Below, in pieces: positions 775 through 34,639 of a DNA stretch of 35,682 nucleotides. Every line of letters begins with the position of its first letter. Positions within the stretch are counted from its first letter, which is position 1. The translations under genes and the position numbers were made by a program. The stretch comes from Frankia alni (GTDB lineage Bacteria; Actinomycetota; Actinomycetes; Frankiales; Frankiaceae), in contig JAMFSN010000054.1 of assembly GCA_026225295.1 (NCBI GenBank), positions 1 to 35,682 on the forward strand. The letters are read 5' to 3'. The notes beneath the pieces were generated by a model, which was not told the DNA's origin, made no database searches, and worked only from the letters and a program-made list of their open reading frames with translations.

Positions 775-1527
775 TCAGCTGACCGAATCGGCGACCACCA
801 CCAGCTCCCGGGCCCGGGCGATGGTGAGTTCCGCGCCGGGATGATGGCCCACCTCCTGCGCGGCGTGGGCATCCGAACCAGGTGCCACCTCGGCGCCGGC
901 GGCGAGAAAACGGGCCACGACGCCCGGCGACGGGCAGCTCCACTTCTCGTTGACGTCGAGGATCGCGCCGGTCCGGGCGGCCTGGGCAGCCAGTTCGTCG
1001 ACGAGCAGCGGATCGACGTCGTCCTCGGACAGCCCGAGTTTGGGCAGAATGCTGAACAGATGGGCGATGACCGGCCGCTCGCACCGGGGCGCGGCGGCGG
1101 CGATCCCGGCGGCGGTCGCCGACATCAGCAGGGCGACGACCTCGTCGGCCGTCACCCGTCCGCTCCACAGATCCTCGGCGATGGCCGCCGGGTCGCACGG
1201 TCCGCCGGGGGCCGGGAAGCGGTGGTCCGCGACCAGGATCCGGTCCAGGTGGGGAAGATCGTCGGGCAGGTCGAGCCGGCCCGAGGCGTCCCACACCTTC
1301 GTCTCGACGCCGGTGTAGACGGCCAGGTCACGGGGGGGACGGACCTGGTCGACCGTCTCGACCAGAGCCGGCACCCAGGTGGTGTCGCGCCGGACGTGGT
1401 CGGTCAGGCAGATCTCGCGCAGGCCGGCCTCCGCGGCGGCGATCACACAGGCCGCCGGGCTGGAGAGCGCGTCGTCGGAGAACGTGGTGTGGACGTGGAC
1501 ATCCTGATGCGGGTCGGGGCCCGTCAT
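775..1527 (-). CDS. PHP-domain phosphoesterase, histidinol-phosphatase-like
   Basis: The 250-residue product has the metal-binding motifs of the PHP family in order: DVHVHTTFSDDA (HxH) at the N-terminus, LTDHVRRD, VETKVWD (Glu ligand), PVIAHL in the middle, and GSDAHAAQEVG near the C-terminus. PHP proteins are mostly trinuclear-metal phosphoesterases such as histidinol-phosphate phosphatase; the closest general group is the HisK/YcdX-like stand-alone enzymes. It is probably cytoplasmic, as no signal peptide is seen. Its ATG overlaps the stop of the upstream ATP-grasp gene in an ATGA, so the two are translationally coupled. No histidine genes are nearby, which argues against a dedicated histidine role; the natural substrate is unknown and may be a product of the ATP-grasp enzyme. 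Confidence 0.85.
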   Translation of the reverse strand: MTGPDPHQDVHVHTTFSDDALSSPAACVIAAAEAGLREICLTDHVRRDTTWVPALVETVDQVRPPRDLAVYTGVETKVWDASGRLDLPDDLPHLDRILVADHRFPAPGGPCDPAAIAEDLWSGRVTADEVVALLMSATAAGIAAAAPRCERPVIAHLFSILPKLGLSEDDVDPLLVDELAAQAARTGAILDVNEKWSCPSPGVVARFLAAGAEVAPGSDAHAAQEVGHHPGAELTIARARELVVVADSVS

Positions 1528-2795
1528 CGCCGGCCACCGGCCCGGACCCCGTCGCGGTCACCCGTCCGGCCGCCGTTCGACCCGGCATCCGGCTCCCCGT
1601 TCGACCCGTTCGACGCGGCCGGTTCGGACCCGTTCGACCCGGCCGCGGCCCGCGGGTCCCCGCCGACCGCCGGGACCGCGTCGAACGCATCCAGCGCGAC
1701 GACCACGTCCTCCCAGTGGCGGACCATCGCCACGTCCTCGAACGGCAGCGCGTCGGCGGGCCGACCGGGGGGCAGCCCCGACACCTCGCCGGTCAGCAGA
1801 CCGTCCAGGGCGAGGACCGGCATGTCGACCCCCGCCGCCACGGTGAGCGGCATCGTTCCCGGAAAGCGCGGATTGATCTCCAGCAGCCGGGGCTGGCCGT
1901 TGACGTCCCGCCGGCACTGGACGTTGGCCACCCAGGTCAGGCCGATCGTTTCGGCGGCCAGGCGGCCGAACTGTTCCAGCTCCGGATCATGCAGGGTCCG
2001 GCCGGCCACCGACACGCCCGAATCGGTCTTCATCCGCTCCCGTGGAACGACGGCCCGGACCGCCCCGTCGCCGTCGGACAACACGTCGATCGAGTACTCC
2101 GCCCCCGGCAGGTATTCCTGCAGCATCAGCCCGGCGTAGCGCGGCAGCCGGCGCAGTTCGTCCGGTTCGCGCAGCAGCCGGACCCCCCGGCTACCCGAAC
2201 CGGCGCGGGGCTTCACGACCCGCGGTGGCCCGGCCCACTCGTCCGGCTTGAAGGAGCCATCCACGTCGGCGGTCGCGGGCACCGGAATGCCGGCCGCCGC
2301 GCAGTGGCGCACCAGGCGCAGCTTGTCGGCGCACACGGCCAGGGTCTCCTCGGAGGCCAGCAGGAGCCGGACGCCGGACCGGGTGAAATCGTCGCGTACC
2401 CGGGCCAGCGGGAGCAGCTCGGTGTCGACGGTCGGCACCACCACGTCGACCCCGGCCACCGTGCACAGGAACGCGACCGCCCCGGCGAAGCCGAGGTCGT
2501 CCCCGGGCGGCAGCAGGAAGCGGCGTTCGGCCGGGACCAGGAACAACCCGGCCGCCAGCGGGTCGATGTCGGCCGCCACCACCTCGGCACTCCCGGTCTC
2601 GGTCAGGCGCCGGACCAGGGCCACGGCGGCCGGACCACCCGCCCCCGTGACCAGGACCCGGGGGGCGGTTCGACCACCCCCGGCCCGGTGACCCGCGGCG
2701 GGCCGCCGCCGGTCCCGATTCCTCTCGGGGCCGGCTGCCGCGCCGCCCGCCCGACTGTTCCGCGGCCGGCCCGGAAGTCTTTCGTCACTGCTCAC
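1524..2795 (-). CDS. ATP-grasp family ligase (carbamoyl-phosphate-synthase-large/PylC-like)
   Basis: The 423-residue product opens (GTG start) with ~45 basic, low-complexity residues. A Rossmann-like pre-ATP-grasp domain follows (RVLVTGAGGPAAVALVRRL, then VVAADIDPLAAGL and VVVPTVDTELLPL). The ATP-grasp domain then shows PPRVVKPRAGSGSRGV (nucleotide-binding Lys and Gly loop), LMLQEYLPGAEYSIDV, and the Mg-binding ending LLEINPRFPGTMPLTVAAG. Such enzymes form acyl-phosphate intermediates and ligate an amine or amino acid to a carboxylate. The last ~45 residues are a Gly/Asn/Ser-rich repeat tail (SNGS, SNGSNG, GSNGG) that looks disordered. The stop overlaps the PHP gene start by ATGA. The substrate is not predictable. 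The real start may be later, since the first 45 residues are outside the conserved fold. Confidence 0.85.
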   Translation of the reverse strand: MSSDERLPGRPRNSRAGGAAAGPERNRDRRRPAAGHRAGGGRTAPRVLVTGAGGPAAVALVRRLTETGSAEVVAADIDPLAAGLFLVPAERRFLLPPGDDLGFAGAVAFLCTVAGVDVVVPTVDTELLPLARVRDDFTRSGVRLLLASEETLAVCADKLRLVRHCAAAGIPVPATADVDGSFKPDEWAGPPRVVKPRAGSGSRGVRLLREPDELRRLPRYAGLMLQEYLPGAEYSIDVLSDGDGAVRAVVPRERMKTDSGVSVAGRTLHDPELEQFGRLAAETIGLTWVANVQCRRDVNGQPRLLEINPRFPGTMPLTVAAGVDMPVLALDGLLTGEVSGLPPGRPADALPFEDVAMVRHWEDVVVALDAFDAVPAVGGDPRAAAGSNGSEPAASNGSNGEPDAGSNGGRTGDRDGVRAGGRR

Positions 2796-24568: not shown

Positions 24569-24936
24569 GGGGGTGATCGGTTTCGACTCCGGACGTCGAG
24601 GCAGGGGAAGCGGGCCGAGGATGAGCGGTTATCTCGTAAACGATCCGCTCAAAGTAATAGCTGCCACTAACAAGCAGCCTGCTACCGCTTACGCCCTCGC
24701 GGCCTAAGCAATAGGGTAGCCGTCAGCCTGGGAGTTCTCCCGGCCCAGGACCTGGCGTCGCTAGGGAGATCACCGTTCCACCCGGTCGCGGGGTAGGACG
24801 GGAAATCAAACAGCGACTGAGCCGACGCCGGCCCGCCTGCGGGACCGGAGGGGCTGAGAAATAAGAAGCAGGATGCGCCCGGAGAAGCCCTGTGTCGGGG
24901 CCGGAGGACGCGGGTTCGATTCCCGCCACCTCCACC
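24569..24936 (+). ncRNA. ssrA: Transfer-messenger RNA (tmRNA, ssrA)
   Basis: The 5' end reads GGGGGTGATCGGTTTCGAC and the 3' end TTCGATTCCCGCCACCTCC then A (T-arm and acceptor). The acceptor stem pairs GGGGGTG with CACCTCC over 7 bp with one G-U. The CCA is not fully encoded (ACCC). The tag reading frame is 24663-24707: resume codon GCC after TAGCT, encoding ATNKQPATAYALAA and TAA, so the full tag is AATNKQPATAYALAA with the charged Ala. It tags stalled nascent peptides for proteolysis together with SmpB. A serine-recombinase gene on the opposite strand overlaps its 3' 212 bases. Confidence 0.95.
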
Positions 24937-26270
24937 CAAGTAGGCATTGCGCGAACCGCTCCCTTCGGGGGCGTTGTGGCTGGTAGGACGGCTGCGGCGC
25001 CCCGGTTGGGGGCGGTTTTCGTGGTGGGTCGGGTCGGTTTGGGTCGGTCTGTGTCTCCAGTCTCTGGGCGGGCGGTTTCGCCTGAACCGTTGGGTCCGGG
25101 GATCTTGAAGATCGGGACGAGACGGTCCGGTCCGACGATTTTGACTTCGGCGACGAGGGCTTCGATGAGGGCCTTGCGGCGGAGGTCGTCGCCCGTCTCG
25201 ATGATCGTCTCGATGTGGTTGATGACGGTGCGGAGCGTGGAGCGGGCCGGCATGACGGGTTCGTCGTCGATCTCTTCGGTGAGTTCGACCTGCCGGTGGC
25301 GGAGCTGCTTCTGCTTGGTGCGCAGGGCGTCGAGCCGGGTCGCGCCCAGATAGCGGTCGATGGCTTGGTCGGTTTGGGTGAGTTCGGTCTCGATGGCGGT
25401 GAGTTCATCGCTGCGGTCGGAGCGGGTTTCGCGGTGGCGGCGCTGGGCTTTGGCGACGGCGGCGGCGATGAGCTGCTGGTGGTCGCGGTAGAAGGTTGCT
25501 AGCGAGGTGAGCACGGCGCAGTCGACGGCGTCGGCGTCGAGGCGGGGGGCTTCGCACGCGTCGCGGTTGTAGCGGTTGCGGGTGCGGAGCCCACGGCTAT
25601 TGAGGACGTTGGCGATGTTCTTTGTCCCGAGGCGGTCACGGACGTACAGGTCGAAGACCAACCGGACGATCGCGGCTTCGGTCTCGTCGATGATGAGTTT
25701 CTTGGCGGTCTTGTCGACCTGGTAGCCGTAGGGCCGTCGGCCGCCCTTCCACAGGCCCTTCGCGGCTTTGCGTTCCATCCCGGCGATGACCCGGTCGATG
25801 ATCGTGTCGCGCTCGAACTGGGCGAACATCGCCAGCATCTGGAGCAGCATGCGGCCGAGGGGGGTGGCGGTGTCGAACGGCTCGGTGGCCGAGCGGAACA
25901 CGACCCCGGCCTGCTCGAGTTCCTCGAGCAGGTGGACGGTGTCGCGCAGGCTGCGGGAGAGCCGGTCGACGCGGTAGACGAGGAGGACGTCGATGAGCCC
26001 GTCGCGGGCCGCGGTGAGCGCCCGCTGGAGGTCTTTGCGTTGGGTGGTGGAGCCGGAGGCGTCGTCGGCGAACCGTAGCGCGACCACCCAGTTGGGTTGG
26101 GAGTCGACGTAGGAACGCAGCCGGTCTTCCTGCGCCTCGATGGAGTAGGGCTGGTTCTCGTCGTCGGTGGAGCGGCGCAGATAGATCCCGACCCGGACGG
26201 TGTCGAGCGGTTCGAGAATGGCCTGCTGGCTGCGTTTCGCGGTGGTGCGGCGCGCGGTCGAGCGCGGCAT
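24723..26270 (-). CDS. Large serine recombinase (integrase), overlapping ssrA antisense
   Basis: The 515-residue frame starts at ATG 26270, after GAAAGGA at about 10 bases. The resolvase catalytic domain is about 25-165: VRVGIYLRRSTDDENQ with nucleophile Ser34, VYRVDRLSRSLRDTVHLL, and MLAMFAQFERDTIIDRV. The start of the recombinase DNA-binding domain follows (RPYGYQVDKTAKKLIIDE, NIANVLNSRGLRTRN). The sequence then jumps to RYNRDACEAPRLDADAVDCA, the distal end of a zinc ribbon, so the usual ~110-residue remainder of the recombinase domain and the first zinc-ribbon Cys pair are missing. A coiled-coil region (about 270-380) remains. The last ~70 residues (from MPTWVEVAGIEPASS) are antisense tmRNA sequence. 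It may be inactive. Confidence 0.8.
   Translation of the reverse strand: MPRSTARRTTAKRSQQAILEPLDTVRVGIYLRRSTDDENQPYSIEAQEDRLRSYVDSQPNWVVALRFADDASGSTTQRKDLQRALTAARDGLIDVLLVYRVDRLSRSLRDTVHLLEELEQAGVVFRSATEPFDTATPLGRMLLQMLAMFAQFERDTIIDRVIAGMERKAAKGLWKGGRRPYGYQVDKTAKKLIIDETEAAIVRLVFDLYVRDRLGTKNIANVLNSRGLRTRNRYNRDACEAPRLDADAVDCAVLTSLATFYRDHQQLIAAAVAKAQRRHRETRSDRSDELTAIETELTQTDQAIDRYLGATRLDALRTKQKQLRHRQVELTEEIDDEPVMPARSTLRTVINHIETIIETGDDLRRKALIEALVAEVKIVGPDRLVPIFKIPGPNGSGETARPETGDTDRPKPTRPTTKTAPNRGAAAVLPATTPPKGAVRAMPTWVEVAGIEPASSGPDTGLLRAHPASYFSAPPVPQAGRRRLSRCLISRPTPRPGGTVISLATPGPGPGELPG
24998..25019 (+). terminator. Rho-independent terminator after ssrA
   Basis: Stem CGCCCC (24998-25003), loop GGTTG, GGGGCG (25009-25014), then G and TTTT. 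It sits about 60 bases after the mature tmRNA 3' end and is oriented to end ssrA transcription. A second hairpin, CGCTCCC/GGGGGCG, precedes it near 24957-24973. Both lie inside the recombinase coding frame on the opposite strand. Confidence 0.6.
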
Positions 26271-26963: not shown

Positions 26964-27620
26964 TCACGCGGTCGGTTCCGGGCTGCCGTTCCCGTTTTCC
27001 GGATCGTTCGGCGTGTCCTGGGAGAATTCCCAGGCAGGTAGGTGCCAAGTGATGATTCCGGTGCCGGGAGCCGCGAGGAGCTGGGCGCGGTAGAAGGTCC
27101 GCCCGTCGATGACCGGTTCGTGGGCGTGGGGGCAGATGACCCACTGGTCGGGTGGGACGGCCTGGCCAGCGTTGGTGCGCCCCCAGACGGTGGCGCCGGT
27201 GTAGACGGGGTTGGCCAGGACGCGGCCGATCGCGGTCGACGTCCACGGGCGGGGCGTTCCGGTGGTCGGGTCGAACGGCAGGAGGAACAGGTCCTGGAGC
27301 CCGTTCAGGCGGGTGGCGATCGAGCTGGGGCTGAGTCGGTCGTCGACCCGCCACCGGTAGATCGTCGCGACAGCGGTCGCGGGACCGGGGTCGATGACGA
27401 GGCGGACACGGCGGCGGGGCTGGCCGTCACGGTCGATGGCGGTGACCCGGTGAGCCTGGTAGCCGAAGGGCACGGGGCCGAGATGGAAACCGGCCCGGAC
27501 GAGGTCGATCTGGGCCTGGCGGGCCCGTTCGGTGGTCCAGGCGTGGTGGGCGGCGAGCTGGCGGTCCTGTCGGGCGGCGCGCGGGTGGGTGAGGCGCCAC
27601 CACCAGCGCGGCCGGCTGGC
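26964..27620 (-). pseudogene. Recombinase-domain fragment (no catalytic domain), fused in frame to a foreign N-terminus
   Basis: The C-terminal ~210 residues of the 312-codon frame starting at 27902 match the DNA-binding 'recombinase' domain of serine recombinases: VRAGFHLGPVPFGYQAHRVT, TIYRWRVDDRLSPSSIATRL, WTSTAIGRVLANPVYTGATVWGR, and PPDQWVICPHAHEPVIDGRT. There is no resolvase domain; the frame's N-terminus is an unrelated NmrA-like remnant. It may be either a fragment or one of the stand-alone actinobacterial recombinase-domain proteins whose start was lost at the fusion. The intact frame could be translated as a chimera. Confidence 0.65.
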
Positions 27621-27902
27621 CGGCGCGGCGGGCCGCCGCCGGCAGTACGTCGGCGTGCGCGATCGCGTCGGGCACCGTGACGCCCGCGTTGATCGTGTGA
27701 CCACCACGTCCAGTCCCGCTATCGCCTCGACCACGCTGGCGGCGTCGAGCACGTCGGCGACTTTCCAGGCCGCCCCGCCGGTGGTGGACCGCACCCTGGA
27801 GGCGTCACGCGCTACCGCCGTCACCTGGTGGCCACGACTGAGCGCCTCCGCGACGACACGCTGGCCGACGGTCCCGGTCGCGCCAGTAACACCAATCTCC
27901 AT
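27620..27902 (-). pseudogene. NmrA-like NAD(P)-binding protein, 5' fragment (truncated, frameshifted)
   Basis: From ATG 27902 (GGGAGGG a few bases upstream) the frame gives MEIGVTGATGTVGQRVVAEA, the dinucleotide-binding GATGxxG motif, and continues to AGLDVVVT. Then the reading shifts: in another frame NAGVTVPDAIAHADVLPAAARRAGQPAALVV continues the same protein. The remaining ~200 residues of an NmrA-type reductase are absent; recombinase sequence begins instead. It is divergent from a TetR relic at 27950, the usual arrangement for a reductase and its repressor, and both are broken. Confidence 0.7.
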
Positions 27903-27949
27903 GGTCCCTCCCGATGGGGCATGCGACAGTAGGACGATCGCCAAGGCAC

Positions 27950-28180
27950 TGTCGGCCATCGCCGGGACGACTTCGCGCCCGGTCTCGTCACCGAGGTCCG
28001 CGAGGCATTTTCGGGTCTGCCGCCCATACCCGTCGGGCTCGCCCTACGGGTATGGAGTCGGATGCACGGACTGGTCGCACTGGAGGTGCACGGCATCTGC
28101 GCGCCCAGACCGTGGATCCGGCGAAGCTTCACCGCGCCGAGATGCTCGACCTGGTGGCGTCCCTCGGCCTGCCCAGTGGC
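27950..28180 (+). pseudogene. TetR-family regulator, C-terminal relic (frameshifted)
   Basis: In one frame the bases read FAPGLVTEVREAFSGLPPIP, VGLALRVWSRMHGLVALEVHG and, after a frame change near 28095, DPAKLHRAEMLDLVASLGL. Together they match the WHG-type ligand domain of TetR regulators, whose C-terminus is typically 'MHGxVxLEVxGHL...LYxAExxDLxxxLG'. The DNA-binding N-terminus is missing. It was probably the partner of the NmrA-like gene on the other strand. No function remains. Confidence 0.6.
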
Positions 28181-28303: not shown

Positions 28304-29209
28304 TTAGGGGAGGCGCCAGCCGACGGCGAAGGCTCGGGCCGGATTGCGGAGGAAGATGGCGTCAGCGACGTCGGCGCCGAGCTCGTGCTCAATTCGCGGA
28401 CGCAGACCGCTCAGCAGGAACGGCATACCCGGACCGTCGGCCCGCGATCGAGCGGCGGCGGTGACAGTGTCGGCGCCGAGCAGGACCTGATTCCCGTGGC
28501 CGGCGTCGACCAGGTACGCGAGGCTTCTCAGGAGGCGCCAGTCCGTTGGGTGATGCGGTCGTGACGGGCCGTCGAACTGGAGGAACGCGCCCGCTTCGGC
28601 GGCCCGCCGGTGGATGCGCGGATCAGGAAAGCGATGGAGGTGCCCGAGGATGACGCGGTGGGGCGGGACCGCGTGCGTCCCGCTCAGCAGGTCGAGCACC
28701 TCGAGAGCGGCCGTCCCCGATTCGAGGTGGACGCCGATCGGCGCGCCGGTGGCGTGGTGCGCGTCAGCAGCGGCCGCCATCACCTGCCGGCTATGACCGT
28801 CGAGGTGGTGGTACGCCCCCGCCACCTTGATCAGGCCGGCCTTCGTCGGCCCCTCGGTCAGGTCCTTGATGAAGAGCGGGGCCAGTTCGTCGCGAACACG
28901 CTCGAGCGCGTCCGCGGCGTAGTGCCTGGCCTGGTGCAGGCCGGTGGCGGCGACGATGTGGACGCCGGACTCGCGGGACAGGCGACCTAAACGTGCGGTT
29001 CGCCGCCCCATACCCCAGGGTGTCCACTGGACCACGGCGCGGCCGCCGAGCGCCGCGAAGGCGCCCAGCTCCACGAGCGCGGCATCCACATCGTCCAGTT
29101 CCTGTCCAGGCAGCAGCGGCGAACGGAGAAAAAGGTGGTCGTGGGCGTCGCAGACCCCGAGCTCGTCGGCGCTGATGTCGCCGAGGACCGTCCGGACCAG
29201 CGGGTTCAT
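28304..29209 (-). CDS. Phosphotriesterase-family (lactonase-like) metallohydrolase
   Basis: The 301-residue amidohydrolase-fold protein of the PTE/PLL group begins NPLVRTVLGDISADELGVCDAHDHLF (HxH metal pair). Other ligands follow: AGLIKVAGAYHHL with the carbamylated-Lys candidate, GAPIGVHLESGT, HRVILGHLHRFPDP (His ligands) and NQVLLGADTVTAAARS (Asp base). Such enzymes hydrolyse organophosphates or lactones with two divalent metals. There is no signal peptide. It starts at ATG 29209 overlapping the stop of the upstream CMD-family gene by ATGA, so they are coupled. The natural substrate is not predictable; a lactone is likelier than an organophosphate. Confidence 0.85.
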   Translation of the reverse strand: MNPLVRTVLGDISADELGVCDAHDHLFLRSPLLPGQELDDVDAALVELGAFAALGGRAVVQWTPWGMGRRTARLGRLSRESGVHIVAATGLHQARHYAADALERVRDELAPLFIKDLTEGPTKAGLIKVAGAYHHLDGHSRQVMAAAADAHHATGAPIGVHLESGTAALEVLDLLSGTHAVPPHRVILGHLHRFPDPRIHRRAAEAGAFLQFDGPSRPHHPTDWRLLRSLAYLVDAGHGNQVLLGADTVTAAARSRADGPGMPFLLSGLRPRIEHELGADVADAIFLRNPARAFAVGWRLP

Positions 29210-29646
29210 CCGTCCGCGCCCGGGTTCGGGTTCGAGTCCCCGGCGCGCAGCGCGGCCAGGGCCACCCGCAGGCCGGCGAGCGCCCTGGGCACACCGATGT
29301 ACGGCGCCAGATGCACAAAGATCTCGATGACCTGCTGAGGGCTGAGGCCGACGCGCAGCGCGGTCGTGGCCTGACCGGACAGCTGGGGGTCCACGGCGCC
29401 GAGCGTGGCGAGAGCGGCCAGGTTGACGAGCTGTCGATCACGCAGCGACAGCTCGCCCCGCAGGTACGTCCCGCCGAACAGGGCAGTGACGATCCAGTCG
29501 GCGAAGCCAGGGGCGACCTCGTCGAGGCCGGGCAGGGTTGCCGTCTGGGCGGCCTCGTCCTGGAGGACGTCCAGCAGGCGGTAGCCCTCGGCACGGTCCA
29601 GCCGCGCTCGCGTCAGGCGCTCCGCGATCGGCACTGGTTGCTCCAT
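29206..29646 (-). CDS. Carboxymuconolactone-decarboxylase-like protein
   Basis: The 146-residue product (ATG 29646) belongs to the CMD family. The core helical segment has GFADWIVTALFGGTYLRGEL, LSLRDRQLVNLAALATLGAV, and SGQATTALRVGLSPQQVIEIFVHLAPYIGVPRAL. It lacks the CxxC pair of the AhpD type, so it is the gamma-carboxymuconolactone-decarboxylase/YurZ-like type without thiol chemistry. The stop overlaps the PTE-family start. The 97-bp spacer on the other side holds palindromes that probably control it together with the divergent CGNR gene. Confidence 0.87.
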   Translation of the reverse strand: MEQPVPIAERLTRARLDRAEGYRLLDVLQDEAAQTATLPGLDEVAPGFADWIVTALFGGTYLRGELSLRDRQLVNLAALATLGAVDPQLSGQATTALRVGLSPQQVIEIFVHLAPYIGVPRALAGLRVALAALRAGDSNPNPGADG

Positions 29647-29680
29647 GGCCAGGCTCCAATTCCATCCAAGGTCGACGCAT

Positions 29681-29734
29681 GTAACGCCTTAACCGTTACC
29701 GGGAAGGTAACACGAGTAACGGGCGAACCGTTAC
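29681..29734. promoter_or_regulatory. Operator candidate: two adjacent palindromes (GTTACC/GGTAAC and GTAACGG/CCGTTAC)
   Basis: Palindrome 1: GTTACC (29695-29700), 5-bp spacer GGGAA, GGTAAC (29706-29711). Palindrome 2: GTAACGG (29716-29722), 5-bp spacer GCGAA, CCGTTAC (29728-29734). A further GTAACG at 29681 is an inverted partner of CGTTAC at 29694-29699. All lie between divergent genes (CMD starts 29646, CGNR starts 29744). The same half-site (GTAAC/GTTAC) is used five times, which is what a cooperative dimeric regulator leaves. That the CGNR protein binds it is inference. Confidence 0.65.
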
Positions 29735-29743
29735 AGTGGGAGT

Positions 29744-30382
29744 GTGACCCCGGAGGACTGGCTCGCCTTCCGCTTCGACTGCGGCGCGGCCTGGCTGAAC
29801 TTTCTCGCGACTCGTGGTCGTACGTTCAGCCCCAACCCGGTGGAACGGCTGGCGACACCCGACCGCCTGGCAGCCTGGTTGCGGCAGTGCGACCTGTCTC
29901 CCGCCTCGCCGCCCGATCGGGACGATCTGCGTCGGGCCTGGGAGGTCCGCGAGATGCTGCGCGCTCTCGCGCTGGCGGCGGTCGAGGAACGGCCGCCGCC
30001 CCCGGCCGCGGTGGCGGATCTCATCGCGTTCCTGGCCGGACACGACGACCCAGTCCAGTTGATCGCGGGCGACCGGCTGGGCCGCGAACCGCCGGCGACG
30101 ACGGCGCGGGCGCTGGCCCGGATCGCCCGCCAGGCCGTGGACCAGCTGACCGGTTCCGACCGGTCCGCGCTCAGAAGCTGCCCGGAGCGTGACTGCCGGG
30201 GTGTCTTCATCGACCCGCCGGGGCGGCGGCGCTGGTGCCCGTCTCCCGCGTGCGCGAGCCGAGGGCGGGTCCGCGCCCTGCGGGCCCGGCGCGACGGAAC
30301 CACGCTCGGACCCACCGACCCGGCGGCGGCGAATCCGCGAAGGCGGTCCGGGCCCGCGGGATCGGGCCCGGGCGCGGCATGA
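29744..30382 (+). CDS. CGNR-type zinc-finger transcriptional regulator (ABATE domain)
   Basis: The 212-residue protein (GTG 29744) has an ABATE-like N-terminal part: FRFDCGAAWLNFLATRGRTF, LRQCDL, LRRAWEVREMLRALALAA. The C-terminal zinc finger then reads SCPERDCRGVFIDPPGRRRW, CPSPACASRGRVRALRARR (Cys 146, 151, 165, 170). In the family the last motif is CGNR; here it is C170-ASR. The finger probably still binds zinc but the recognition loop differs. Such regulators commonly control adjacent metabolic genes. The start follows the palindromes at once, with only GGGAG close to the GTG, so the mRNA may be leaderless or have a very short leader. It is divergent from the lactonase/CMD pair. Confidence 0.82.
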   Translation: MTPEDWLAFRFDCGAAWLNFLATRGRTFSPNPVERLATPDRLAAWLRQCDLSPASPPDRDDLRRAWEVREMLRALALAAVEERPPPPAAVADLIAFLAGHDDPVQLIAGDRLGREPPATTARALARIARQAVDQLTGSDRSALRSCPERDCRGVFIDPPGRRRWCPSPACASRGRVRALRARRDGTTLGPTDPAAANPRRRSGPAGSGPGAA

Positions 30383-30761: not shown

Positions 30762-31352
30762 CTAGTCCGTGGGTGCGGTAAGGAGGGCGCTGCGGTGTGG
30801 TCGGTTCTGCCAGGCGGTCAGGACGGCGTCGACCAGCGGGGTGTCGATCCCATTGGTGGTGTCGACGTCGAGGTCGTAGGGGCCGAAGGTGTGGATGCGG
30901 TCGATCTCGACGTGGCCGCGGCCTTCGCCCAGGCGGCGGTCTTTCCGCTCGCGTTCGCGGCGGTCGATTTCGGCGAGGTCGCAATGCACGCCGACGAGGA
31001 ACACATCGAGATCGGCAAGGAGACGGGCAAGGTCGCGTCGCCAGGCGGGGAACTCGATGATGTGTTCGACGATCAGGTCGCTCCCCGCTTCGGCGAGCGC
31101 GGGCAGGCACCCGTGAAAGCCGGCGAAGAAGCGGGGACGGACGTGCTCCCGCCAGGCGAACGGCCCGGTCGGATCGCGCCGTTCGGGCAGCATTCCGCCG
31201 TCGATCAGCTGGTCTGAAGACACGACGAGGAACGGCACGGGCAACGCGCGCTGCAGTGCCTTCGCCAGGGTGGACTTACCCGAGCTGGACGCCCCGTTCA
31301 GAAAGATCACGCGGCCCGGATTCCGATCCGGCGGGTGGGGCTCCACGCTCAT
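30762..31352 (-). CDS. Chloramphenicol-phosphotransferase-like kinase
   Basis: The 196-residue P-loop kinase resembles the CPT family of Streptomyces venezuelae: RVIFLNGASSSGKSTLAKAL (Walker A), PFLVVSSDQLIDG, SDLIVEHIIEFPAWRRDLARL, VFLVGVHCDLAEIDRRERERKDRRLGEGR (Lid Arg), and IHTFGPYDLDVDTTNGIDTP near the end. CPT proteins phosphorylate the primary hydroxyl of chloramphenicol, but most chromosomal homologues have unknown small-molecule substrates. The ATG at 31352 has no strong Shine-Dalgarno. It is a stand-alone gene. Confidence 0.87.
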   Translation of the reverse strand: MSVEPHPPDRNPGRVIFLNGASSSGKSTLAKALQRALPVPFLVVSSDQLIDGGMLPERRDPTGPFAWREHVRPRFFAGFHGCLPALAEAGSDLIVEHIIEFPAWRRDLARLLADLDVFLVGVHCDLAEIDRRERERKDRRLGEGRGHVEIDRIHTFGPYDLDVDTTNGIDTPLVDAVLTAWQNRPHRSALLTAPTD

Positions 31353-33120: not shown

Positions 33121-34200
33121 TCATGTTGCTGGTGCCTCTCTGACCTTGGGGTTTTCTTACCGCATCTCGCGCCCGTCGTCCTGGACCGGGTAGAACGGGT
33201 CGGTGACCGGCTGCGGTTACGGGTCCGTGCCCGGGCCACCCATGGGCAGTGCCCAGACTGCGGCGCGGTCTCCGGGCACGTCCACGGGCGTTACCGCCGG
33301 TTGTTGGTGGATGCACCGGTCGCGGGGGCCCGGGTCGAGATAGATCTGCTGGTCCGCCGGTTCCGCTGCGCTGCGGCAGCATGCGGGCGGGTGACGTTCG
33401 CCGAGCAGGTCGCGGGCCTGACGAGCCCGCACGCCCGGTTCACTCCGCTCGCTCGGGCGATGGTGGAGGCGATCGGGTTGGCGTTGGCGGGCCGGGCGGG
33501 CGCGAGGTTGGCCGGCCAGCTCGGACTCGCGGCCGGCCGCAACACGTTGCTGCGCCGAGTGCGGGCGTTGCCGGACCCGCACTCGGGGTCGTGAGGACGC
33601 TGGGCGTGGACGACTTCGCCCTACGACGCGGCCGGGTATACGGCACGGTCCTGGTCGACGTCGACACCCACCGGGTCGTCGACCTGGTGGACGACCGGGA
33701 AACAGCGACGTTCGCCGCCTGGCTGACCGAACACCCCGGCGCGACGGTGGTCTGCCGGGACCGGTCCGTTAGACGGTGCGCGGACCGGTGCGCCGGACGC
33801 CGTGCAGGTCGCGGACCGCTGGCACTTGTGGCACAACCTGGCCGGTCACGTCGAGAAGACGGTAAGCCGCCACCGGTCGTGCCCGCACGAACAGCCCGAC
33901 CGGCCACCGCCGACACCGTGGCCGGTGAGCCGACCGACGTTGCCCAGGTGCTGGCCGCGGCGGGCGATGAGCACTTCGAGGGCCGGCCGTTCGTGCGACA
34001 CGCCCGGGCGCGCTACGCCGCCGTCCAAGACCTCAAAGGGAAGGGCCTGGGGATCAAGCCGATCGTCCGGGAACTCGGTCTGGCGAAGGAGACCGTGGGC
34101 CGGCGCCGAGGAAGAAACCGCCGCCGCGCAGGTCGCGGTTGGACCCGTTCAAGCCGGCGGTCGACGAGATGCTGCGCGCCGATTTGGACGCCCCGGCCAA
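33121..34200 (+). pseudogene. ISL3-family transposase (IS204/IS1001/IS1165 type), several frameshifts
   Basis: Segments in three frames reassemble the family: zinc-finger part QCPDCGAVSGHVHGRYRRL, LVDAPVAGARVEIDLLVRRFRC and VTFAEQVAGLT (to about 33590). A frame change follows, then the DDE start TLGVDDFALRRGRVYGTVLV and [14 protein letters not shown]. Another change leads to [20 protein letters not shown], then [21 protein letters not shown]. At least three frameshifts and no complete C-terminus are seen. Terminal inverted repeats were not found. It truncates the gene behind it. Confidence 0.75.
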
Positions 34201-34204
34201 ACCA

Positions 34205-34639
34205 CATCGTCAGCCATGAGTACCGCTACGCCGACAACCTCGCGACAAACAACTCCGAGTACTACGTGGCCTCCCGCGACGAGGACTTCCTCGGCGACGA
34301 TCCGCACGGCTCCTGGCCCAGGGGCGTGGCTCTTCTCGATGAGGCAATAGCCGGGCTGGACAGCCTCGACACGACGATCAGCTTCCTTCTCCCGCTGCCC
34401 GCCCGAGACGTACTACTCGTCCGCGTCTTCAAGCCGCCGTGCACACCTGGGACGTCTCACGCGCAATCGGTTTCGATGATCGAATCGACGAGCGCCTCGC
34501 CATGCTGACCTACCCACCGTTGGAACGGCTGATCCAAGTGCCGGCCACCCAGGCGTTCTTCGCGCCCCCGCAGGACACCCTCCCGAGCACGGCAACGCCT
34601 CAAGATCGCCTGCTGCACCTGGCAGGCCGCAGACCCTAA
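34205..34639 (+). pseudogene. Maleylpyruvate-isomerase/TIGR03086-family gene, C-terminal relic
   Basis: The frame from about 34205 reads [54 protein letters not shown]. After a one-base shift near 34432 it continues VHTWDVSRAIGFDDRIDERL to HLAGRRP and TAA. This matches the C-terminal part of mycothiol-dependent maleylpyruvate isomerase/TIGR03086 metal-binding proteins, where HTWD and a final LLxLxGRxP are typical. The N-terminus is missing, replaced by the ISL3 remnant. Confidence 0.6.

Follow-up and report, generated by a model that had tools for sequence, protein, structure and literature searches.

Does the short gap between a putative zinc-finger regulator gene and two enzyme genes of Frankia alni hold the operators of that regulator, and what would the regulator then control? 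We address this question in a window of 35,682 nucleotides (the whole stretch of DNA analysed, from contig JAMFSN010000054.1). A first-pass annotation of the window had described an ABATE/CGNR-type gene divergent from coupled genes of the CMD and PTE families, and both the Pfam matches given below and the ATGA shared by the PTE start and the CMD stop (29206-29209) bear this out. The span it proposed, 29206-30382, covers the regulator and CMD genes but omits most of the PTE gene, which is part of the unit (Table 1). A 97-bp gap separates the regulator gene from the divergent enzyme pair, and two palindromes lie inside it. Taken as a whole, the arrangement is best explained, with somewhat better than even confidence, as an autoregulated, probably repressor-controlled and patchily distributed lactone-processing cassette.

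Table 1. Features of the regulator-enzyme unit, in window coordinates.
Feature	Position	Strand	Remarks
Regulator gene, ABATE + C4 treble-clef finger (CASR form of zf-CGNR)	29744-30382	+	GTG start, 212 aa; PF07336 + PF11706
CMD-family gene, PcaC-like, optional unit member	29206-29646	-	PF02627; PDB relatives 4g9q, 2af7
PTE-family metal hydrolase gene, constant partner	28304-29209	-	PF02126; model closest to lactonase 3pnz
Distal operator (predicted), GTAACG-N7-CGTTAC = GTAACGCCTTAACCGTTAC	29681-29699	none	Exact match; kept in relatives
Proximal operator (predicted), GTAACG-N7-CGTTAC = GTAACGGGCGAACCGTTAC	29716-29734	none	Exact match; kept in 25/25 units
Inferred -10 of regulator, TACAGT	29732-29737	+	6 nt 5' of GTG start; predicted leaderless
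Inferred extended -10 of CMD-PTE promoter, TGTTACCTT	29704-29712	-	TANNNT between palindromes

The pattern GTAACG-N7-CGTTAC has two exact copies in the window, and all other matches there carry two or three mismatches. A twin palindrome of one half-site and one spacing did not arise in any of 20,000 dinucleotide shuffles of the gap. The earlier description of two palindromes with the same half-site stands, both copies being exact, but its 5-bp spacer does not: the shared geometry is 6-bp arms around a 7-bp spacer, and 7-bp arms with a 5-bp spacer are true of the second copy only. A candidate third operator, GTTACC-N5-GGTAAC (29695-29711), was rejected; it consists of the right arm of the distal palindrome and the inferred enzyme -10, and it is not conserved.

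The first-pass annotation had named a check beforehand, namely to look for the same palindromes before homologous gene pairs. A scan of genome contigs turned up 24 proteins closely related to the regulator (L004-L027; identities of 56-75%), which together with the window make 25 units. Their hosts belong to Sphaerisporangium, Microbispora, Nonomuraea, Amycolatopsis, Actinokineospora, Streptomyces, Planosporangium, Actinoallomurus, Antrihabitans, Nocardia, Goodfellowiella, Kribbella, Actinomadura and Pseudonocardia. The palindrome lies upstream of the regulator in all 25 units, in two copies in 23 of them; the two single-palindrome units are those of Amycolatopsis, where the distal left arm is lost, and Streptomyces orinoci, which has one copy. 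The refuting outcome that the annotation had named, homologous units without the palindromes, was thus not observed. Centre-to-centre spacing is 23-39 bp in the units with two. Across the 48 copies the 12 outer bases are invariant, position 9 is T or C in every copy, and 47 have A or G at position 11. The PTE gene is divergent from the regulator in 24/25 units (the exception being S. orinoci) and the CMD gene in 21/25, the units without it being those of Microbispora, two Kribbella and S. orinoci. Identities of the regulator and PTE proteins correlate across units (Mantel r 0.77; 0/2000 permutations). A wider conserved neighbourhood was ruled out, since these three genes alone are common to the units.

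It is important, then, to ask where else the palindrome occurs. The genome of the window has it at the two window sites only. The 25 genomes reached via these loci usually have two copies, placed beside the regulator or the PTE gene; the one exception is a stray third copy in Nocardia albiluteola, with no related gene close by and no purine at position 11. The reversed pattern, used as a control, occurs once in all across the 25 genomes. In a class sample of 394 genomes, the palindrome pair is found in four, exactly the four that have the regulator (E below 1e-35); of these, G332 is an addition, the other three having been represented by the 25 units or their genomes, and the 390 negatives are new as well. 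Nine further genomes of this sample, without the regulator, have one lone exact copy each, and none of these copies is close to a regulator, CMD or PTE gene.

The cassette is patchily distributed among many actinobacteria. The regulator is present on five plasmid records, and the palindrome pair accompanies it in all three that were examined; on one plasmid the genes are annotated as phosphotriesterase, carboxymuconolactone decarboxylase family and ABATE domain-containing protein, and a transposase adjoins. A search of phage records gave no match. In S. orinoci, the regulator has its single palindrome and neither CMD nor PTE gene beside it, and the PTE ortholog lies on another contig with two palindromes upstream. 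The palindrome stays with regulator gene and target gene alike, whether or not the two are neighbours. The S. orinoci regulator and PTE protein have different nearest relatives, and they may therefore stem from two cassettes.

How do the palindromes lie with respect to promoters? In 25/25 loci a TACNNT hexamer straddles the regulator-side end of the proximal palindrome, three bases inside it and three beyond, and an in-frame start codon follows after 6-7 nt; the regulator promoter would thus be leaderless, with half of its -10 inside the operator. On the opposite strand, TANNNT is present between the palindromes in 22/25 loci, in the extended TGN form in 16. By this assignment the distal palindrome would lie over the start of the CMD-PTE transcript and the proximal one over the enzyme -35 region. 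These promoter placements follow from consensus matches, but the fixed T three bases past the palindrome in every genus is hard to account for in any other way. A sigma-70 and terminator scan of the gap returned nothing informative. What the genomes show directly is the gene make-up of the unit and its operators, which are conserved, almost exclusive to the unit, linked with both of its genes and overlapped with consensus -10s.

The regulator matches the ABATE domain PF07336 (E 1.4e-21; 77.9 bits against a gathering score of 24.4) and the finger PF11706, zf-CGNR (E 1.1e-10; 41.6 bits against a cut-off of 24). Its zinc-ligand cysteines 146, 151, 165 and 170 are invariant in the 25 sequences. 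The first-pass annotation had noticed CASR in place of CGNR in the finger, and this substitution turns out to be a signature of the whole subfamily: the literal CGNR motif is missing in 25/25, where CASR, CATR or CAIR takes its place and the four cysteines are kept. The motif is not strict in the ABATE/zf-CGNR family, as Jann_2411 has CQNR (PMC2954205). A PDB sequence search with the regulator or its profile gave no useful match, but a fold search with the predicted model does find Jann_2411 (3h0n) as the best match (VIA Z 7.7 over 129 residues; next Z 3.8), the model being only moderate (mean pLDDT 71, finger about 60). On the basis of that one structure, the family has been proposed to be transcription regulators, a DNA role of the finger included; the report on Jann_2411 describes a probable dimer whose interface has a large, deep cavity (PMC2954205), features that would fit a palindrome and a ligand. 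The literature searched, which comprised open-licence papers (subscription work may exist), yielded no DNA site, target or ligand for any member of the family.

The PTE protein matches PF02126 (E 8.2e-37, 127.7 bits, above the family score). Its metal-site residues H23, H25, K128, H161, H190 and D247 are invariant in the 25 sequences and make up the full binuclear site of HxH, Lys, two His and Asp. The best structural match of its model is the lactonase 3pnz (TM 0.86). It scores 110 bits with the phospho-furanose lactonase model NF045706, far below the equivalog cut-off of 630, and its scores stay under the cut-off of every specific NCBIfam model. Homology to PTE proteins leaves the substrate unfixed, and a lactonase role is suggested by kinship. 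The CMD protein matches PF02627 (E 2.8e-16) and scores 43.7 bits with the PcaC model TIGR02425 against a cut-off of 155.7; it is PcaC-like, not PcaC. The window copy is without any Cys and so lacks the CxxC of the AhpD-like redox branch. Its residue 92 is Gln, a position at which 13/13 aligned relatives have His, and its activity may be altered through this change. A literature search for a connection between CMD and PTE genes found nothing relevant.

In the mechanism that we propose, the ABATE/CGNR protein would bind each GTAACG-N7-CGTTAC operator, presumably as a dimer. The proximal operator would cover the regulator -10 and also the enzyme -35 region, and the distal operator the start of the enzyme transcript; protein bound there would silence the promoters on either side. 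The ligand of the ABATE part, most likely a lactone-like PTE substrate or a relative of it, would be a small molecule that releases the protein, so that enzymes and regulator would be induced together. The PTE hydrolase would be the core effector, and the PcaC-like CMD protein, where present, would supply an accessory step. The locus is thus probably a self-contained unit in which a zinc-finger protein controls both its own gene and one or two lactone-type enzymes via two near-identical sites. The relatives, the near-exclusive placing of the palindromes and the separated case in S. orinoci support the compact circuit of regulator, operators and enzymes that the first-pass annotation had suspected; it knew of no described example, and our search of open-licence papers likewise found none. 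We infer binding by the ABATE protein itself, repression over activation, the inducer and the substrate from the layout and from homology, and the terms 'inducible', 'lactone' and 'detoxification' are suggestions drawn from the enzyme families.

Depending upon how much of this mechanism is accepted, several other explanations must be weighed. One of them, that the palindromes are functionless products of chance, could appeal to the nine lone copies in genomes without the regulator, but those copies have no cassette gene near them, and the invariant core of 48 copies in many genera and the shuffles of the gap argue against it. We therefore reject a chance origin, on cross-genus conservation, the genome sample and the shuffles, as vanishingly improbable. 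It is also conceivable that another transcription factor reads the palindromes and the ABATE protein acts otherwise, for example on RNA or on another protein, given that the DNA role of the finger is a proposal from one structure (PMC2954205). Yet the palindrome pair is confined, within the 394-genome sample, to genomes with the ABATE regulator; the palindrome accompanies the regulator gene without the enzymes in S. orinoci; and sister palindromes lie upstream of other ABATE genes. We consider such a division of labour very unlikely, and it is highly probable, judging from these patterns of co-occurrence, that the operators belong to the ABATE/CGNR regulator.

Divergent regulators often activate the neighbouring operon while repressing their own gene. 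The regulator could accordingly own the operators and still be a ligand-dependent activator of CMD-PTE and a repressor of itself, a possibility in keeping with a proximal operator over the enzyme -35 region and the regulator -10. Two observations, neither of them decisive, speak against activation: the distal operator, at the inferred enzyme start, occupies a repressing position, and in S. orinoci both operators lie upstream of a PTE gene with no regulator gene there to autoregulate. We regard activation as unlikely, and repressor logic, as read from operator positions, as quite likely. A rather stronger competitor, though one we would still bet against, keeps the circuit and assigns the enzymes to something other than lactones, such as esters, phosphotriesters or another metabolite, or places CMD in redox defence. 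The breadth of the PTE superfamily, the want of a specific NCBIfam model at cut-off and the want of conserved neighbouring pathway genes are on its side; against it, the nearest solved structure to the PTE protein is a lactonase, and the CMD protein is PcaC-like and without Cys, unlike the redox-type CxxC proteins (PMC3426412). From homology, a lactone substrate seems to have a little more than an even chance.

Is the cassette, read as repressor-controlled, peculiar within its family? The upstream stretches of 120 other ABATE members were retrieved, of which 116 were usable. Exact GTNACN palindromes with a spacer of 7-9 are present in 15/116, versus 0.12 (maximum 1) in shuffled sequence, and of 256 half-site templates GTNAC comes first (template mean 0.27), counts that are not independent since the members are related; most of the 116 stretches lack an exact GTNAC palindrome. 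Elsewhere in the family the sister palindromes take the form GTNACC-N9-GGTNAC. In the cases where finger and upstream stretch are both readable, half-site and spacing change with the helix that comes after the last Cys. The fingers CASRGRVRA and CGVRLRVRA go with GTAACG, at spacers of 7 and 8, respectively (RVRA, 7-8 bp), and CGNRxKVRA with GTAACC (KVRA, 9 bp); CGNRxKAAxY and close variants go with GTCACC (KAAxY, 9 bp), and CGARAKMAAY with GTTACC (KMAAY, 9 bp). Because few clades are involved, this code of finger and half-site is offered as a hypothesis. We would give even chances to a broader reading, in which ABATE/CGNR proteins form a general class of local autoregulatory repressors whose treble-clef finger reads GTNAC-type palindromes, the helix setting half-site and spacing and the operators often lying over a leaderless -10; the cassette would be its best-resolved example.

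Many ABATE subfamilies have other palindromes, or none that we recognised. Inverted repeats recur upstream of several: GCAACC-N9-GGTTCC (L188, L198, L199, L217, L219, L227), CTAATGC...GCATTAG (L200, L207-L209, L233, L237, L242, L257) and CTCACC...GGTGAG (L194, L196, L201). These are probably further operators. In L030 (476-1441, minus strand; 1342-2055, plus strand), an ABATE paralog of 37% identity has two GTAACG-N8-CGTTAC palindromes and is transcribed divergently from what seems to be an EamA/DMT-type transporter gene, the same layout as in the cassette with a different target.

Among known systems, the QsdR-controlled qsdA-qsdC operon of Rhodococcus erythropolis, a repressor system released by lactone, also pairs a divergent regulator gene with a PTE-family lactonase and has two palindromes in the intergenic region that they share (PMC6262395). 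QsdR is TetR-type, whereas the cassette regulator is an ABATE/CGNR protein with a zinc finger, so the analogy is one of working only; the partner enzyme there is an acyl-CoA ligase, here a PcaC-like CMD protein. ECF41 sigma factors are likewise tied to a single adjoining CMD-type target with a conserved promoter motif (PMC3426412), but they are sigma factors rather than a proposed repressor, their CMD protein has the CxxC, and there is no PTE gene. The phospho-furanose lactonase Lmo2620 (3pnz) shares its fold with the PTE protein, and the metal-ligand positions match, at 27% identity and with the NF045706 score given above. Jann_2411 and the cassette regulator have the same two domains, ABATE and treble-clef finger, but are only about 12-20% identical and differ in the motif (CQNR there, CASR here). 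To our knowledge, Jann_2411 has no known DNA site or target. A local regulator opposite its enzymes is a commonplace layout; what sets the cassette apart is its regulator family and how complete the comparative evidence is. For the neglected ABATE/CGNR family, the cassette provides an operator in which 12 bases are invariant, a target operon of its own and a naturally occurring separation of regulator and target, which makes specific DNA binding by the family directly testable, and the cassette itself may be a compact sensor for a probably lactone-type compound met by soil actinobacteria.

Four other reading frames of the window deserve mention. The minus-strand frame at 26964-27959 begins as an NAD(P)-binding (NmrA-like) protein and continues into a serine-recombinase domain, and a full serine recombinase is encoded nearby (24723-26270, minus strand); this looks like a recombinase-bearing element inserted into a reductase gene. 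At 30762-31352 (minus strand) lies a chloramphenicol phosphotransferase-like kinase (PF07931, E 2.5e-42), well under the cut-off of the named resistance enzyme model. A long frame at 33249-34508 (plus strand), possibly frame-shifted, has a translation that by eye resembles a transposase.
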